A DNA stretch of 42,353 nt from a virus. Of the stretch, positions 7,762 to 42,266 are shown one piece after another. The stretch is from positions 1-42,353 of the IMG/VR virus record IMGVR_UViG_3300006931_000017. One strand, given 5' to 3'. The notes under the pieces are model-generated. The model saw only the letters and a list, made by a program, of their open reading frames with translations. It was not told the DNA's origin and searched no databases. A program made the translations under genes and the position numbers. The first letter of the stretch is position 1; the number at the start of each line of letters is the position of its first letter.

Positions 7762-8674
7762 AAATCCTGCTCCAGCAGTTTGACCAATCACTAGGGTTGC
7801 CATTAAATAGGGGTCTATGTGGACCCCTGACAAACTCAAGGTGAAAGTCATAACGGAGTACCTTACAAAGGAAGTATCCATGAATACGTTGGCGGCCAAA
7901 TATGGCGTCTCCAGCGTCACAATCGGCATCTGGCTGAATAAAAGAGGAATCGTAAACAAGTACTACAAGCGCGACTCCTTCGATCAGCTAGAAGCCATTC
8001 GTCTCTACGTCAAAGAACGTATGCGGGTAGAAGACATCGCCGCATCGCTCAAAGTCGGTATACATCCTATCAACACCATTCTCCGAAAAGCAGGAGTCAA
8101 AAGGACTCAAGCGGATTCGATGATGGGACGTTACCTTGGCGAGAGAAACCCGAACTGGAAAGGAGGACGGATGAATCGAGATGACCTTAGAAGCAGGGTG
8201 GAACATTACGCGAAGAAGATGTCCATCTTCAGCCTCTCAGTGAAACTCCGCGACGGATACGCTTGCATGATGTGCAAGAGCAAAGAAAAGCTCGAAGCCA
8301 ACCACATCAAGCCGGTGCGTTACATCACGGAAGAAAAGGAGCTGTTCGACATCAACAACGGCATCACGTTGTGTCGAAAGTGCCATATCAAGATTCATCA
8401 TCGGGAACACGAATTCGAGGATACTTTCCGCAAACTGCTGAAAAAATCGCATGAACTCAGGGAAACCCCCCACCGCCTCTGAACATGGGCGAGGGCAATC
8501 CTGATCCAAGTCAGCTAGGAATAGCTGGAAGGAGCAACGACTAGGTGCATACCACGAGACCCGTGATGAAGCACCCACGAGCGTGCGACAGCCGAGGTAC
8601 GGCTGATGATATAGTCTGACCCCGTAAGAAATTACGGGAAACGAAGGATAAAGAGCCTTCGTGATAACATTGTG
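7762..8674 (+). mobile_element. Group I self-splicing intron in the major capsid gene
   Basis: The 913-nt intron interrupts the capsid gene after codon 14. Core elements on the plus strand: P1 with splice-site U-G (above); the conserved P4-P5 region G-G-C-A-A-T-C-C-T-G-A-T-C-C-A-A-G (8494-8510); hairpin CAGCTA-GGAA-TAGCTG (8512-8527); P7 GACTA (8539-8543) with TAGTC (8612-8616) in the typical context GATATAGTCTGA; P8 CAGCCG/CGGCTG (8589-8605); P9 CCCGTAA-GAAA-TTACGGG (8621-8638); and a further 7-bp hairpin (8641-8662). The last intron base is G (8674), as required. A homing endonuclease gene fills the 5' half. The exact ends are inferred from P1, frame and the terminal G. Confidence 0.9.
7817..8482 (+). 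CDS. HNH homing endonuclease inside the intron
   Basis: Nuclease that would cut intronless alleles of the capsid gene and so spread the intron, 221 aa. The N-terminus has two helix-turn-helix-like repeats (about 18-42 and 55-80) for DNA reading. G-E-R-N-P-N-W-K-G-G (about 109-118) is a NUMOD3-type linker motif. The C-terminus has a zinc-type HNH module with C-M-M-C (about 151-154), E-A-N-H-I-K-P and L-C-R-K-C-H. The ATG has T before it, and a TTAAAT element (7803-7808) sits 8 nt upstream, so it may have its own near-leaderless promoter. The frame lies wholly within the intron and ends just before its conserved 3' core. Confidence 0.9.
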   Translation: MWTPDKLKVKVITEYLTKEVSMNTLAAKYGVSSVTIGIWLNKRGIVNKYYKRDSFDQLEAIRLYVKERMRVEDIAASLKVGIHPINTILRKAGVKRTQADSMMGRYLGERNPNWKGGRMNRDDLRSRVEHYAKKMSIFSLSVKLRDGYACMMCKSKEKLEANHIKPVRYITEEKELFDINNGITLCRKCHIKIHHREHEFEDTFRKLLKKSHELRETPHRL

Positions 8675-9561
8675 TGGACGAAGTGTTCTACGAGAACCTT
8701 TCTCAGCGCGGCAACTTCCCCGGCACCGCTACCGCCGAAAACGGCAAGCTCTTCAAAGTCACGAACACCACTCACGCCGCGTATATCGGTGAAGTCGGCG
8801 CAGGCACCGGCCTCTGGTCGGCCATCGGTGAAGTGACCGTGATTCCTGAAGCGACTCCGCGTGTCGCCAACAAGTACACTATCGCCGTGCAGGACTTCGC
8901 TCAGGGTATTTCCATGAGCAAGGACTGGTTCGACGACCAGATGCATGACGTCTGGCAGGAGTCCGTCGCCCGCTTCGCCATCATGGCGAACATCACCCGC
9001 GACACCAACGCCTTCGGCCTGTTCCGTGGTGCTTTCACCACGACGCTCACGGCTGACGGCGTCGCGGCGATCAGCGCTTCGCACGTCACCCTCTCCGGTG
9101 CGACGGTCTCGAACCTTGTTACCGGTGGTCTTTCGACCACGACGCTCAACACCGCCATCGTCAAGCTTGGCGAGATGAAGTCGCAGGAAGGCGTCATCGT
9201 CGGCGCGGTCGGCGCGGAGATGATGCTGCTCGTCCCGATGGCACTCTTCAAGCTGGCCACCGAGATCACGGACTCCGTCCTCATCTCCGACGCTTCGACC
9301 AACGCGGTCAACGTCTACCGTTCGATGTTGGGTATCGAGGTGATGACCTCGCCGTATCTCGGCGCTGCCGCTGGCGGTTCCGACACGGCCTGGTTCCTCC
9401 TCTCTCCGATGCACTCCGTCCGGCGTCTCGTGCGTCAGGGTGTCACGACCGCCCTGCGCGACTGGATGTACTCCAACAACCGGACGTACTACTACCAGGG
9501 CAACTACCGCGAGAGCTACTTCATCAGCGACTTCTTCGGCCTCGTCGGGTCCGCTGGTTGA
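8675..9561 (+). CDS. Major capsid protein, exon 2
   Basis: Encodes the shell protein. The sequence has the character of HK97-fold capsid proteins of the Mu gpT-like kind: an E-V-G-A-G-T-G-L-W-S-A-I-G-E loop region near the N-terminus, A-N-K-Y-T-I-A-V-Q-D-F-A-Q-G-I-S-M-S-K-D-W-F-D-D (spine-helix entry), a Ser/Thr-rich middle, and S-A-S-H-V-T-L. A GTG at 8674-8676 could seem to start a 295-aa frame, but then the first 15 residues of the protein would be missing and the intron core would be unexplained. Spliced product 309 aa. A 20-bp class hairpin follows the stop. Confidence 0.85.
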
Positions 9562-33059: not shown

Positions 33060-33650
33060 TCAGCTCTCCTGTTGGATGAGTCGGTCGATGGCGGATACCG
33101 CCTCTTTGAATCCATCCCACGGGTAATCGCCCTCTTCACCCACATAATCCTCTTGCGCTTTCTCTACCACTCCCAATGCTTCCTTCAACGCCGCGAGTCT
33201 GGCAGAGGCGAGTTCGCGCTCAATGAAGTCCTTGATACAGTCGAAACTCTTACAGGTATGGGCCATGTCGAGGTCTTTCACTCCAAACTCCTTGAGCAGA
33301 AAGCGGCCCTCGAACCTCTCGCGCCACCCCTCCTTCTCCGCCTCGGCGGTCGTGTCGGGCTTCCCCGTCGAGCAGTAATAGCAAGGCAGAGTAATCTTGT
33401 GGGGTACGCATTTGTCCAAATGAAGGCCGAAGAACTTGTCGTACCCATACTTGATGCCGTGTTCCCGCCACTGGCTGACGCCCATCGGCGCGTCGTCCTC
33501 CTTTTCCGCCTCGACCGCTTCGGGCTTCTTGGGGGAGTGACCTCCGTGACAGACCGAAGGCCAAGCGCAGGAGCCATGCTCACCAGGCTTGTTCCAGGTC
33601 ATACATTTTTCTTTCTCACAGGTGTCGCAGATGTCGTTGGGGGTCGTCAT
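33060..33650 (-). CDS. Cys/His-rich protein, 196 aa (paralogue of the next)
   Basis: The N-terminus has I-C-D-T-C-E-K-E-K-C and further Cys/His (S-C-A-W, V-C-H-G-G-H). Mid-protein C-Y-Y-C adds another knuckle, so two zinc sites are likely. The C-terminal half is helical. The C-x-x-C-E-K-E-K-C start is shared with the 204-aa neighbour, implying duplication. Overlaps that gene by 4 nt. Zinc-binding adaptor or nucleic-acid-binding role possible. Confidence 0.65.
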   Translation of the reverse strand: MTTPNDICDTCEKEKCMTWNKPGEHGSCAWPSVCHGGHSPKKPEAVEAEKEDDAPMGVSQWREHGIKYGYDKFFGLHLDKCVPHKITLPCYYCSTGKPDTTAEAEKEGWRERFEGRFLLKEFGVKDLDMAHTCKSFDCIKDFIERELASARLAALKEALGVVEKAQEDYVGEEGDYPWDGFKEAVSAIDRLIQQES

Positions 33651-34261
33651 AGCATTTCATCCTTCTTAGCTTTCATCGCGGCCACGCAGGCGTTCCAGCC
33701 ACCAGCGCGTAGTCCATCTTCGCAGTCTGAAACAGGTTCGCATGTTGCTCCCGAACATTCGTGTTGGTCGAGTTCCATCATCACCGCCTCCGCTCCTTCC
33801 ACCCGAGCAGCGCGGAGGGCTTCGGCTATTCCGATGAGCAAATTGTGATACGGGATTCTCCCAAGCACGTCGTACATCTTGGGGTAGAGGAAGTTGGCAC
33901 CGACGGCATCCTTAACGATTTCCTTCGCCTGCCTCACGTCGATTTCCTTGTCCCTATCAATGCGCATCGTGTCGGGAGCTTCCGCAGTCGGACTCTTGGT
34001 GGGGGAGTAGTGGCATCCAAGCTGGTGCTTCTCGCCACGGCTAGGCCAAACGTGACAGGCGCGGCATCGGTCGTTCGGATAAGGCGGTTCCTTCTCCTCC
34101 TCCTCCTGATGGCCGTGGCAGTGCAGGTGGTCTTGGTCTTTACACTCAGACGTAGCGTGGTAGCAGGGGGCGTCAGGCTTACAGCGTTCACATTTCTCCT
34201 TCTCGCAGATATCGCAGTTAGGCATAGCGGATGGCCTATCGATTTTCTTCTCTTTGGTCAT
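33647..34261 (-). CDS. Cys/His-rich protein, 204 aa
   Basis: After a basic start comes C-D-I-C-E-K-E-K-C-E-R-C and a dense His/Cys region (S-E-C-K-D-Q-D-H-L-H-C-H-G-H, C-R-A-C-H), about 16 Cys and His in the first 85 residues, then a helical C-terminal domain with more Cys. Likely binds several zinc ions. Predicted to start exactly at the ATG by a TAAAAT element 6 nt upstream (leaderless). It lies directly downstream of the large structured RNA. Confidence 0.65.
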   Translation of the reverse strand: MTKEKKIDRPSAMPNCDICEKEKCERCKPDAPCYHATSECKDQDHLHCHGHQEEEEKEPPYPNDRCRACHVWPSRGEKHQLGCHYSPTKSPTAEAPDTMRIDRDKEIDVRQAKEIVKDAVGANFLYPKMYDVLGRIPYHNLLIGIAEALRAARVEGAEAVMMELDQHECSGATCEPVSDCEDGLRAGGWNACVAAMKAKKDEML

Positions 34262-34266
34262 ATCCC

Positions 34267-34312
34267 TATTTTAGTCCCTCCTTACAAGGCATGGTTTTAT
34301 TTTAGTCCCTCC
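34267..34312 (-). promoter_or_regulatory. Twin 15-bp repeats with -10-like TAAAAT
   Basis: TATTTTAGTCCCTCC occurs at 34267-34281 and 34298-34312, 31 bp apart (three helical turns). On the minus strand each reads GGAGGGACTAAAATA. The copy nearer the Cys-rich gene places TAAAAT six bases before its ATG. They may be paired operators or tandem promoters. Confidence 0.5.
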
Positions 34313-34344
34313 CATCCTGGAAGATGAGAAGGTGGTTGAGCTAA

Positions 34345-34915
34345 CGCCAACACTTGTGACCCAGAAGATTATCTTTCAGGTACCTATCCACTAGGAATTA
34401 CACAGGTGTTGGCGGCAGCTCTCGAACCTCCCCGAAGCCATGCGTGTGACTCCAGTGAGGTTCGAGGTGCCTGCTGCAAGGGCCTGCGGTTTTACCCGCC
34501 TCGGTCCGTCAGATTTGGGTCAGCTGCGGTGAAGCTTCCGACTCTGTAGCTAACGGACCGAGGCGACCCACCGATGATGTGGCGGAATGATGCCCACCAT
34601 CAGCGTGCCGCCGGAGAGGGAGAAGAAGGTCGGTTGCCCTGTTGACTGGCTTGTACCTCCGCCGTCACTTAGGACTGTCTTCTCTTATTCCTCTCCGGCG
34701 ACAGCGGTATCAGAGACACCGCAGGTCGCTGGTCATGCTGGCTTGGCTAACATCGTTCCTCCGAAGAGGACCGTGGTGACTACCTCACGGTAGCCACGAC
34801 CGCACGACCGTTGGGCTTGCGCCCATGGAGAGTAATGAATATATGCCTGGAAAGATGCACCTTTCCATTCTAGGCTTGGGGAATCGCACCCCGATATCCT
34901 CATTACTCCCCATGG
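34345..34915 (-). ncRNA. Large ornate structured RNA (candidate)
   Basis: About 570 nt, gene-free, nearly all in stems. Read on the minus strand from 34915: a 16-bp arm (34915-34900 with 34838-34823, one mismatch) enclosing hairpins GGAAAG/CTTTCC within GCCT/AGGC and GGGG/CCCC; GGGC-GCAA-GCCC (34824-34813); CGTGG-CTACC-GTGA-GGTAG-CCACG (34798-34772); TCCTC-TTCG-GAGGA (34770-34757); GCGAC-GCGGT hairpin (34729-34698); an 11+7-bp arm (34700-34690 and 34684-34678 with 34626-34609); a 13-bp perfect arm (34565-34553 with 34509-34497); a 10-bp arm with outer GCAGC (34477-34415); a 14-bp arm with one G-U (34414-34401 with 34358-34345). GNRA and UUCG loops appear only on this strand. Size and style resemble ROOL/GOLLD RNAs, but the family is not established. 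Confidence 0.8.
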
Positions 34916-34917
34916 AC

Positions 34918-34931
34918 GGCCCACGTGGGCC
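34918..34931. other. 14-bp perfect palindrome next to the RNA
   Basis: GGCCCACGTGGGCC reads the same on both strands. It starts inside the stop codon of the lipoprotein gene and ends 2 nt from the outer arm of the structured RNA. It could be a processing stem, a protein site, or the first helix of the RNA. Confidence 0.6.
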
Positions 34932-35308
34932 TACTCCAAGTCAATGTCAGGAATGATGACGGACGGTTTGAAGATGACCCGGTAGAAGTGATCGTTGGCC
35001 TTCTTGGGTTCGACCTGTTCGACGAAATAGGTCACGTTGTCGGATAGTCCGAGGAAATGCTTCTTGTAGGCGTCAGGTCCTGTTTTGCACGTCACGGAGA
35101 GCTCTCCAGAAGGGTCGTTATTGCCGAGCGAGCACCGACCTTCTATCTCAAGCATGTAGTCCCCAGTGATACCGTTGTAGAACACGATTCGACGGTCAAC
35201 CTCGAATTGGTCTGCGGCCTGTGAGATGTTGTAGGACACGGTACCCGCGTCAGAGCAGCCTGCTCCGATGAGAAGCAATAGTCCTGTGAGAGTGAGTAAC
35301 TTTTTCAT
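34931..35308 (-). CDS. Beta-sandwich lipoprotein, 125 aa
   Basis: A lipoprotein signal M-K-K-L-L-T-L-T-G-L-L-L-L-I-G-A-G-C (lipid Cys18) precedes a beta-rich domain with V-S-Y-N-I-S-Q-A-A-D-Q-F, R-R-I-V-F-Y-N-G-I-T-G-D-Y, C-S-L-G-N-N-D and H-F-L-G-L-S-D-N-V-T-Y-F-V. I recognise this as the beta-sandwich protein widespread in phages, usually without a signal peptide or with a short one. It would sit on the outer face of a membrane. Superinfection exclusion is an attractive but unproven role. A longer frame with 15 extra N-terminal residues overlaps the upstream gene's stop and is not used. Confidence 0.8.
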   Translation of the reverse strand: MKKLLTLTGLLLLIGAGCSDAGTVSYNISQAADQFEVDRRIVFYNGITGDYMLEIEGRCSLGNNDPSGELSVTCKTGPDAYKKHFLGLSDNVTYFVEQVEPKKANDHFYRVIFKPSVIIPDIDLE

Positions 35309-35319
35309 AATGTCTATGA

Positions 35320-35412
35320 TTATTTCCTCTTCGGCCTGTTCTTCTGTCCCCACTTCCTCATGTTCTCGGTCTTGCGCTTGTACCTCTCGATGGGACTGAG
35401 CTTGGAGCGCAT
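35320..35412 (-). CDS. Small basic protein, 30 aa
   Basis: M-R-S-K-L-S-P-I-E-R-Y-K-R-K-T-E-N then M-R-K-W-G-Q-K-N-R-P-K-R-K: about half Lys/Arg. It lies between two well supported genes and has a purine-rich AAGGTGA 1 nt before its ATG, too close for a normal Shine-Dalgarno. Probably nucleic-acid binding if expressed. Confidence 0.5.
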   Translation of the reverse strand: MRSKLSPIERYKRKTENMRKWGQKNRPKRK

Positions 35413-40038: not shown

Positions 40039-42045
40039 ATGAACGAAAAGCTGGAGGCAGCTAAATTTTACTTGGAGGGAGGATTCAGCGTGATTCCCTG
40101 CCAAGTCAGTGGGTCATCTGACGGCAAAAAAGAACTGCATTTTTACGTTGACTGGAAGGAATACCAGAACAAGAAACCGACGGTAGCGGAACTGGATTCG
40201 TGGTGGAAGAGCTGGCCCGGAGCTGACGTCGCTATCGTGACAGGCAAGATTTCTGGAATCACCGTCGTCGATACGGAAAAAGGGGCCGATCTCAACTTGT
40301 TCGGTCTCAAGGACTGTAAGACCGTCAGCGCTCAATCCGGCGGCGGCGGAAAGCATTTCTATTTCGCGTATACAGAAAAAGTCAAGAACCGTGTCAGGTT
40401 CGCGCCGCTGCATGATATTCGCAACGATGGCGGAGTCATCATCGCGCCCCCCTCAGACCATCCGAGCGGCGGCAAGTATGCATGGCTCACCCCATTCGGC
40501 CTTGCTCCTTTGCTGCCCTTCCCACTGGAGATCATCAAGGCTTTCGACCAGACGTCTGGTCTTGAAGTCATAGATTGGAGCAAAAAACTGTCCGAAGTCG
40601 TGGATGAAGGTTCACGCAATGACACCGTCACCAGCGTCGCCGGAAAACTATTCCTCCGTTTTCCAGAGCATGAATGGAATACGCATGTATGGCCTTTTCT
40701 CGTTTCATGGAATGCGGAGCATGCTTCTCCCCCGCTTTCCGAACGAGACCTCCGCACGATCTTCCAATCCATCGGTGGAGCGGAGTCCAGACGCAGGAAA
40801 ACCGGGAGCAAGGTGGGGGAAGCTACGTTGAACCGCGAAAACGGGGTCTTCGTGGTCCGAATTCCGATTGATGACGGATTCGTGGTCTTTTCCTTTGACG
40901 AGCCGCTCTACAGCCGTGGTGATTTGGAGGCCATCGTGAAATGCCATGTCGAGATTCCTGGCCATGCCAAGAGGGTCTTCGAGTCCAGACTGAACGTCCT
41001 GTCCGGCTCTTCCTGTGAGTCCTATGCCCGCCAGCTCACCGCTTCCTTCGGCAAGGAAATCAAGTGGCCCCTCATCCTCTCAGAAGCCGCGGCTCAATTC
41101 AAGCAAGCGTTCAAGGACGCGGCGACAGATGACATCTTCAATGCGGCTGAAATTTTCCCTGAACGACCACAGCATCTTCTGGCCCCATTCATCGAGGAAA
41201 ATGCCGCGAACATGTTGTTTGCGAAAGGTGGGGTAGGCAAGACTTACATTTCCCTGAGATGGGCGCTGTCGCTTGCTTCAGGATGCGATTTCCTCGGATC
41301 TCAGCCCGCAAAGCAAGTCAAAACGCTCTTCATTGACTATGAGAATTCCCCCGGCACCTTCAAGCACCGCATCCTTACGCTCGGTCCGTTCTGTCCTGGG
41401 TTCGATGAAGAAGCCGAAAAGAGGCTGTTCTACAAGAACTCCGGCGGAATTCCTCTGTTTGAGATGAAAGAAGTGTTGCGGAAATTCGTTCTTGAGAACG
41501 GTATCGGTCTTCTGATCGTAGATTCAGCCGCTCCCGCTTGCGGAGGCCCGCCTGAAGACGCCGCAATCGCCACGCGATACTTCGGAGCGCTGCGACACAT
41601 CGGAATCACGAGCTTGACCATCGGGCATGAGGCCAAAGCAGATGACGGTAACTGGACATTCGGTTCGGTCTTCTTCACGAACTTGGCCAGGAACATCTGG
41701 AATCTTCATCCCGAAGGAAAGTCGTCAGAAGGTACGAAACATCTCAGTCTTATCCATAAGAAGTTCAACAACGGACCACTCATGTCAACGATTCCTGTCA
41801 AAATGAAGGATCAAGGGGTGGGGCTCGAATATTCGCTGGAGGACGAACCGAAGTTCTTGCCGAAGGCGTCAGAGCAGAAAGTCTGGGAAGCCATCCAGGA
41901 GGGGGCGACGCGCCCGAAGGAGATTTCCGACGCCACGGGAGTGGCGTACCAGACCGTCAGGAACGCGCTCCAGGATCTTGAAACTGCCGGTAAGGTAGAA
42001 AAGGAGAAATATGGCGTTTATCGGCTGAAGTTAGCCAAGATGTAG
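40039..42045 (+). CDS. Primase-polymerase/AAA ATPase replication protein, 668 aa
   Basis: N-terminal primase-polymerase (archaeo-eukaryotic primase) domain: G-G-F-S-V-I-P-C (14-21), D-V-A-I-V-T-G-K and V-V-D-T-E (Asp78, Glu80 metal site) and S-G-G-G-G-K-H (His106). The middle domain is a RepA/AAA_25-type ATPase with Walker A G-G-V-G-K-T (397-402) and Walker B L-L-I-V-D-S (Asp495). The C-terminal ~55 residues look like a winged helix (R-P-K-E-I-S-D-A-T-G-V-A-Y-Q-T-V-R-N). It likely binds the adjacent repeats, opens DNA and makes primers. No other replicative enzyme is seen, so host polymerase is needed. Confidence 0.88.
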   Translation: MNEKLEAAKFYLEGGFSVIPCQVSGSSDGKKELHFYVDWKEYQNKKPTVAELDSWWKSWPGADVAIVTGKISGITVVDTEKGADLNLFGLKDCKTVSAQSGGGGKHFYFAYTEKVKNRVRFAPLHDIRNDGGVIIAPPSDHPSGGKYAWLTPFGLAPLLPFPLEIIKAFDQTSGLEVIDWSKKLSEVVDEGSRNDTVTSVAGKLFLRFPEHEWNTHVWPFLVSWNAEHASPPLSERDLRTIFQSIGGAESRRRKTGSKVGEATLNRENGVFVVRIPIDDGFVVFSFDEPLYSRGDLEAIVKCHVEIPGHAKRVFESRLNVLSGSSCESYARQLTASFGKEIKWPLILSEAAAQFKQAFKDAATDDIFNAAEIFPERPQHLLAPFIEENAANMLFAKGGVGKTYISLRWALSLASGCDFLGSQPAKQVKTLFIDYENSPGTFKHRILTLGPFCPGFDEEAEKRLFYKNSGGIPLFEMKEVLRKFVLENGIGLLIVDSAAPACGGPPEDAAIATRYFGALRHIGITSLTIGHEAKADDGNWTFGSVFFTNLARNIWNLHPEGKSSEGTKHLSLIHKKFNNGPLMSTIPVKMKDQGVGLEYSLEDEPKFLPKASEQKVWEAIQEGATRPKEISDATGVAYQTVRNALQDLETAGKVEKEKYGVYRLKLAKM

Positions 42046-42049
42046 CCAA

Positions 42050-42266
42050 AGTACACTTTTCGACCAACTGTACTCCAATAAAAAGGGGGGGTAGAGTACA
42101 GTTGGCCCAAAGTACACTTCAGAGTACAGTTCAAAGTACACTTGAATTTTTAGGCCAATCTTAGTTAAAAATATGGCCAAAGGTAAAGTACAGTTGGTTG
42201 AAATCGTAAATGAGTGGGGGAACTGTACTTTCAGTTCCCCTCTCTTATAGAGAGTACAGTACACTT
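42050..42266. repeat. Iteron-like array AGTACA(C/G)TT, ten copies
   Basis: Copies begin at 42050, 42066 (reverse), 42095, 42111, 42123, 42135, 42187, 42221 (reverse), 42253 and 42258 (overlapping; the 42253 copy ends TA). Both variants share the GTAC core. The C and G forms alternate in the cluster 42095-42143 with steps of 16, 12 and 12 bp. The array follows the primase gene directly and reaches into the circle junction. It fits an initiator-binding origin or an autoregulatory site. No gene lies here. Confidence 0.75.

Follow-up and report, generated by a model that had tools for sequence, protein, structure and literature searches.

A candidate large structured RNA in the leftward gene operon of a phage, probably of a new class

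Known large RNAs and the phage locus

To our knowledge, only a handful of large, ornate RNAs have been described from bacteria and phages. Among those closest to the RNA considered here, ROOL and GOLLD form cages without protein; ROOL frequently, but not obligatorily, lies near tRNA islands, and GOLLD combines a conserved 3' region with a variable 5' region (PMC12286853). ORF-less group II introns are likewise known in phages (PMC12350094). Here, we analyzed IMG/VR virus record IMGVR_UViG_3300006931_000017 (42,353 bases; the whole stretch is referred to as the window), in which an earlier note, made from the sequence alone, had pointed to a gene-free block of intricate stems resembling ROOL and GOLLD.

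The window encodes a terminase, a podovirus-type portal, NinG, a DUF669 protein, HNH endonucleases, a primase-helicase, and a Phage_capsid_4 / Mu gpT-type capsid protein. Because the closest terminases among named phages belong to Bacteroides, Cellulophaga, Polaribacter, and Flavobacterium phages (36-41% identity), and because Shine-Dalgarno motifs are absent from most genes of the phage, a Bacteroidota host is plausible. The folded block sits among leftward genes that span 30.0 to 38.8 kb. At 8386-8638 (+), directly 5' of a capsid-like ORF (8674-9561), Rfam identifies a group I intron (RF00028; 71.8 bits, E 2e-16).

A cmscan of the whole window against Rfam 15 returned nothing in the block, either at E<=1 or at the gathering threshold, and a search of the region alone at E<=10 yielded chance matches only, such as miRNA models far under their gathering scores. 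The recovery of the group I intron in the same window indicates that the search works. None of the families named in the earlier note (ROOL, GOLLD, HEARO, OLE, and raiA) matched in the block. Membership in ROOL or GOLLD is therefore unsupported, as no covariance model matched, including that of the conserved 3' half of GOLLD.

The block resembles ROOL in its length of about 600 nt, its phage origin, its ornate multi-domain fold, and in having no known protein partner. It differs in lacking an Rfam match, in its position within a leftward gene operon, and in the absence of any tRNA from the window as searched with ARAGORN. Like GOLLD, it is a large, ornate phage RNA that possibly consists of a conserved domain plus variable domains, but it is shorter and has neither an Rfam match nor a tRNA neighbor. 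HEARO and other IscB-type RNAs come to mind because the corresponding RNA of a relative, described below, adjoins an HNH gene. However, HEARO does not match, the window RNA has no adjoining HNH gene, and the HNH protein of the relative is short (158 aa), like phage HNH homing endonucleases and not like IscB/IsrB. With ORF-less group II introns, the block shares a length of about 600 nt and a large multi-helix architecture, but it contains no D1-D4 or D5/D6 Rfam match, no domain-V-like pattern, and no interrupted gene. The group I model likewise matches 8386-8638 but not the block, where no gene is interrupted. The block probably belongs to no catalogued family and represents a new class of large, structured RNA from phages, comparable to ROOL and GOLLD in kind but part of neither.

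A strongly folded block and its predicted domains

The earlier note placed the block at 34345-34915, about 570 nt. The block is real, but its boundaries need slight widening, to about 34338-34931 (Table 1). It also lacks a convincing gene: the interval that separates the upstream gene's stop codon from the downstream gene's start contains just short, unsupported ORFs of 63 aa (minus strand) and 68 aa (plus strand), and the latter had no match in a PHROGs search.

Compared with shuffled sequence of the same composition, a comparison on which the earlier note had staked its reading, the minus strand folds far more stably (-314.9 kcal/mol versus a shuffle mean of -229.7; z -9.9; 0 of 20 shuffles as low), and the reading is not refuted. 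The plus strand reaches -283.6 kcal/mol (z -8.9). No other stretch of its length in the phage has so low a folding energy; the best of 84 equal-length windows across the genome reaches -287. At least nine stems, several of 10-18 bp, had been proposed, and the predicted structure has over 20 helices measuring 4 bp or longer, with top lengths of 20, 14, 13, and 11 bp. The block is real, strongly folded, and RNA-like. Elsewhere in the window, strong folding of both strands is also seen at positions 42001-42250 (z about -3.5 and -3.2), close to the right end of the record.

Table 1. Features of the putative RNA (RNA-A) and its surroundings, in window coordinates
Feature	Position	Strand	Basis or remark
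Upstream gene	34931..35353	-	Phage_VG64 / PHROG 478 family
Putative large ornate noncoding RNA (RNA-A), seven domains	34338..34931	-	fold z-score, domain map; ends inferred from structure
Perfect 14-nt palindrome GGCCCACGUGGGCC	34918..34931	-	at stop codon of upstream gene; RNA 5' end; from sequence
D1, 20-bp rod closing over heptaloop hairpin and GGAAAG hairpin	34812..34918	-	fold
D1 hairpin with T-loop-like heptaloop UGCGAUU	34878-34892	-	fold
Alternative GCAA hairpin in D1	34812-34824	-	fold
D2, stem bearing GUGA (34776-34797) and UUCG (34757-34770) hairpins	34731..34809	-	fold
D3, four-way junction with one unpaired base	34562..34731	-	fold and covariance model; domain common to relative
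D3 arms P3a; P3b; P3c	34704-34722; 34606-34703; 34569-34605	-	fold
D4, 13-bp rod abutting D3	34500..34562	-	fold
D5, small hairpin GCGG-GUAAAA-CCGC	34486..34499	-	fold
D6, two stacked 9-bp helices	34422..34465	-	fold
D7, long rod abutting D6; apical-loop palindrome AGGUACCU	34338..34421	-	fold
11-bp hairpin enclosing first GGGAGGG motif, no U run after	34307..34332	-	fold
Duplicated GGAGGGACTAAAATA, copies 34298-34312 and 34267-34281	34266..34312	-	sequence
8-codon ORF MPCKEGLK	34266-34292	-	begins just past first GGAGGGACTAAAATA copy, spans second
Downstream gene, 204 aa, no known family	33647..34261	-	C-terminal homologue downstream of RNA in relative
Second downstream gene, 196 aa	33060..33650	-	homologue downstream of RNA in relative

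The predicted fold comprises seven domains in succession with few linkers between them. The minimum-energy structure contains a longer pairing that competes with the GCAA hairpin of D1. In D7, the loop sequence GUACCU is complementary to the D3 apical loop AGGUAC, and the D7 loop AGGUACCU is also self-complementary; together, these complementarities exceed those of shuffled loops (P 0.02). The scarce linkers, abutting helices, and loop complementarities suggest a particle that is compact and whose loops contact one another, either inside a single copy or from copy to copy, a reading made by analogy to the ROOL and GOLLD cages. The junction topology alone is insufficient as evidence, since compact four-way junctions are not rare in this phage (11 of 994 windows contain one).

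The four-way junction domain in a relative

The primase of the window (40039-42045) has one close relative in IMG/VR (locus L118, 75% identical), on contig IMGVR_UViG_3300009285_001880 (G014). On this contig, a block at L120:8650-9400 (-) contains no gene, is rich in GC, and folds strongly, with z-scores of -6.3 (minus) and -3.8 (plus). On its 3' side, an HNH endonuclease comes first on the same strand, and farther along lie homologues of both genes that are downstream of the window RNA (C-terminal part of 33647-34261, E 2e-5; 33060-33650, E 7e-10). The contig also encodes a GroEL-like chaperonin at L118 6534-8075 (-) that shares about 42% identity with its Flavobacterium phage counterparts.

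No sequence similarity stands out when the two blocks are compared directly. R3, a single-sequence covariance model of the window's D3, matches L120:9216-9390(-) over all 170 positions with 31.4 bits (E 1.6e-4 in 95 kb, filters off). With filters likewise off, 95 kb of phage DNA, among which were other structured blocks, gave a next-best score of 15.4 bits. The best scores were 13.5 bits among capsid and terminase relatives (88 kb), 14.3 bits among other phages (88 kb), and 17.7 bits in 88 kb of GC-rich bacterial DNA that served as a null, selected for chance core letters (120 chance matches to a gapped core pattern in genome contigs). The last is the best match outside G014 in about 360 kb of unfiltered sequence. 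Part of the R3 score, though not all of it, is earned by shape alone, since the antisense of D3 from the window, identical in geometry, scores 23.9 bits.

Folded alone, the G014 domain forms three arms in the same order that close into a four-way junction, and RNAalifold, run on the pair alignment, recovers the junction with 17 pairs in which both bases differ. Sequence is kept in five of the six P1 pairs and at the base of P3b, where a U-G pair is among those retained. Among cells lettered in both columns, 96% are standard pairs, compared with 35-55% when the columns are slid by 1-3, in an alignment that was fitted to the structure and hence leans towards it. By this modeling, the same secondary structure is kept through compensatory changes in the G014 RNA, in the D3 domain only. 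The metagenome search and covariation test proposed in the earlier note thus bore fruit in part: one relative was found, with paired changes in one of seven domains.

Models of D1 and D7 gave no significant match in G014, and a 20-nt similarity between D7 and G014 was dropped because the D7 model gives it no support. A tandem (ACGACC)n array at L120 9397-9517 marks the 5' edge of the G014 RNA, and GC content falls there from about 60% to 33%. The contig is possibly chimeric at the array, and with the array and the GC drop at the edge of the block, the 5' half of the G014 RNA may have been lost through misassembly or exchange.

Searches elsewhere gave no further copy. Blastn found no similar DNA in phages and only chance matches of about 30 bases in plasmids, and three exact-pattern scans of IMG/VR returned chance matches only, all of which were checked for folding and for similarity of the flanks. 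Blastn also gave a weak match of 38 nt in L079/L080, dismissed because it lies inside a coding frame. No primase relatives were found in bacterial genomes. Because default filters miss the R3 match to G014, negative filtered searches mean little. The RNA was not found in relatives by capsid, terminase, or portal (L070, L076-L078). Three relatives with a 58% identical capsid protein lack a match as far as searched, so the RNA may move along with the early region instead of the virion genes.

Among 68 contigs with a homologue of the upstream gene, structured blocks in L034, L068, L011, and L028 proved unrelated to the window RNA. The L034 block (1952-2450, +) folds strongly (z -6.4) with little coding sequence and no Rfam match at the locus, and is possibly another unnamed RNA. 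L068 contains a very long inverted repeat at 1700-2050, with a 22-bp hairpin around GCGAGGGCAGCCCUCGC, a strong minus-strand fold, and no Rfam match.

Direction, alternative readings, and proposed role

The earlier note regarded three tetraloop hairpins as an independent vote for the direction of the RNA. The GCAA, GUGA, and UUCG hairpins are indeed present on the minus strand and none occurs on the plus strand, against 0.55 on average in shuffles (P about 0.02). As strand evidence, however, this 3:0 tally is weak by itself, as is the energy asymmetry of 31 kcal/mol, because the whole minus strand of the phage is biased in loops (58 GNRA/UNCG hairpins versus 29 on the plus strand) and in folding energy (mean difference -16, SD 22). 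The best evidence of direction is the strand-specific match of the D3 model to the relative, with 31.4 bits on the operon strand and 9.9 bits on the opposite strand. Together with the fold z-score and the lack of a meaningful Rfam match, this strand-specific match at a syntenic locus gives good support to a large ornate RNA, outside the known families, that runs with the operon. The same match argues against a DNA-level structure, that is, a replication origin or recombination site of inverted repeats that makes no RNA product. The strong folding of both strands (z -9.9 and -8.9) would fit such a site, but the U-G pair of P3b is kept between window and relative, it is only on the minus strand that further pairs change to G-U, and the minus-strand helices contain 21 G-U pairs and 1 A-C mismatch, versus 6 A-C mismatches in the antisense fold. 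We consider a DNA-level structure very improbable.

The main rival is a cis-acting leader, in which the structure would regulate translation or stability of the 33647 and 33060 gene pair; the hairpin at 34307-34332 would hide the first GGGAGGG, and the 8-codon ORF would sense translation. In both phages the block lies upstream of both genes (in G014, with the HNH gene and others intervening), and in the window the 11-bp hairpin covers a ribosome-site-like motif that is duplicated, with the GGAGGGACTAAAATA copies 31 bases apart and no further copy in the window when up to 3 mismatches are allowed. Still, the block is far bigger than known leaders, and no switch-like alternative pairing between its body and the hairpin was seen. 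Hiding a Shine-Dalgarno motif may mean little in a phage most of whose genes have none, and the G014 RNA is followed by an HNH gene instead. A leader is accordingly an unlikely reading, and less likely again is a self-splicing or mobile RNA element, either degenerate or of an unknown kind, with the HNH endonuclease of G014 as its mobility gene. That gene lies directly downstream of the G014 RNA, the size of the block resembles that of an ORF-less group II intron, and a true group I intron occurs elsewhere in the window. Against these stand the lack of any group I or II match or domain-V-like pattern in the block, the absence of an adjoining HNH gene in the window, and the flanking sequence, in which no split gene lies on either side and the upstream gene stops right at the RNA start.

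On balance, we think it fairly likely that the block encodes a large noncoding RNA that folds by itself, belongs to a phage class not yet described, derives from the operon, and serves as a structural scaffold. As neither a sigma-70-type promoter better than chance, nor a Bacteroidota-type promoter, nor a terminator was recognized at the block, the RNA is probably cut from, left over from, or protected within the leftward operon transcript. It would fold into rods and a compact four-way junction, and, by analogy with ROOL and GOLLD, its loops may make tertiary or intermolecular contacts. We infer its processing, stability, assembly, and any role in infection, and a function as an RNA scaffold that is possibly self-assembling. 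A more ambitious proposal seems doubtful to us, namely that it forms a third independent class of phage RNA-only self-assembling particles beside ROOL and GOLLD, with a four-way-junction core, the symmetric D7 kissing loop (AGGUACCU) and the 5' palindrome as subunit contacts, and expression from a gene operon, not a tRNA island. The class assignment rests on one D3 domain in one homologue, and two sequences make no family; the remainder of the RNA beyond D3 is represented by a single sequence.

If true, the preferred reading of a large noncoding scaffold RNA would add another class, from an unrelated phage lineage and another kind of genomic location, and would shed light on whether large RNA scaffolds have evolved repeatedly in phages and for what purpose. 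The compact four-way junction of the new RNA can be probed at once. That the shape of D3 is kept with paired changes in a distant phage suggests a real, unstudied kind of viral RNA.
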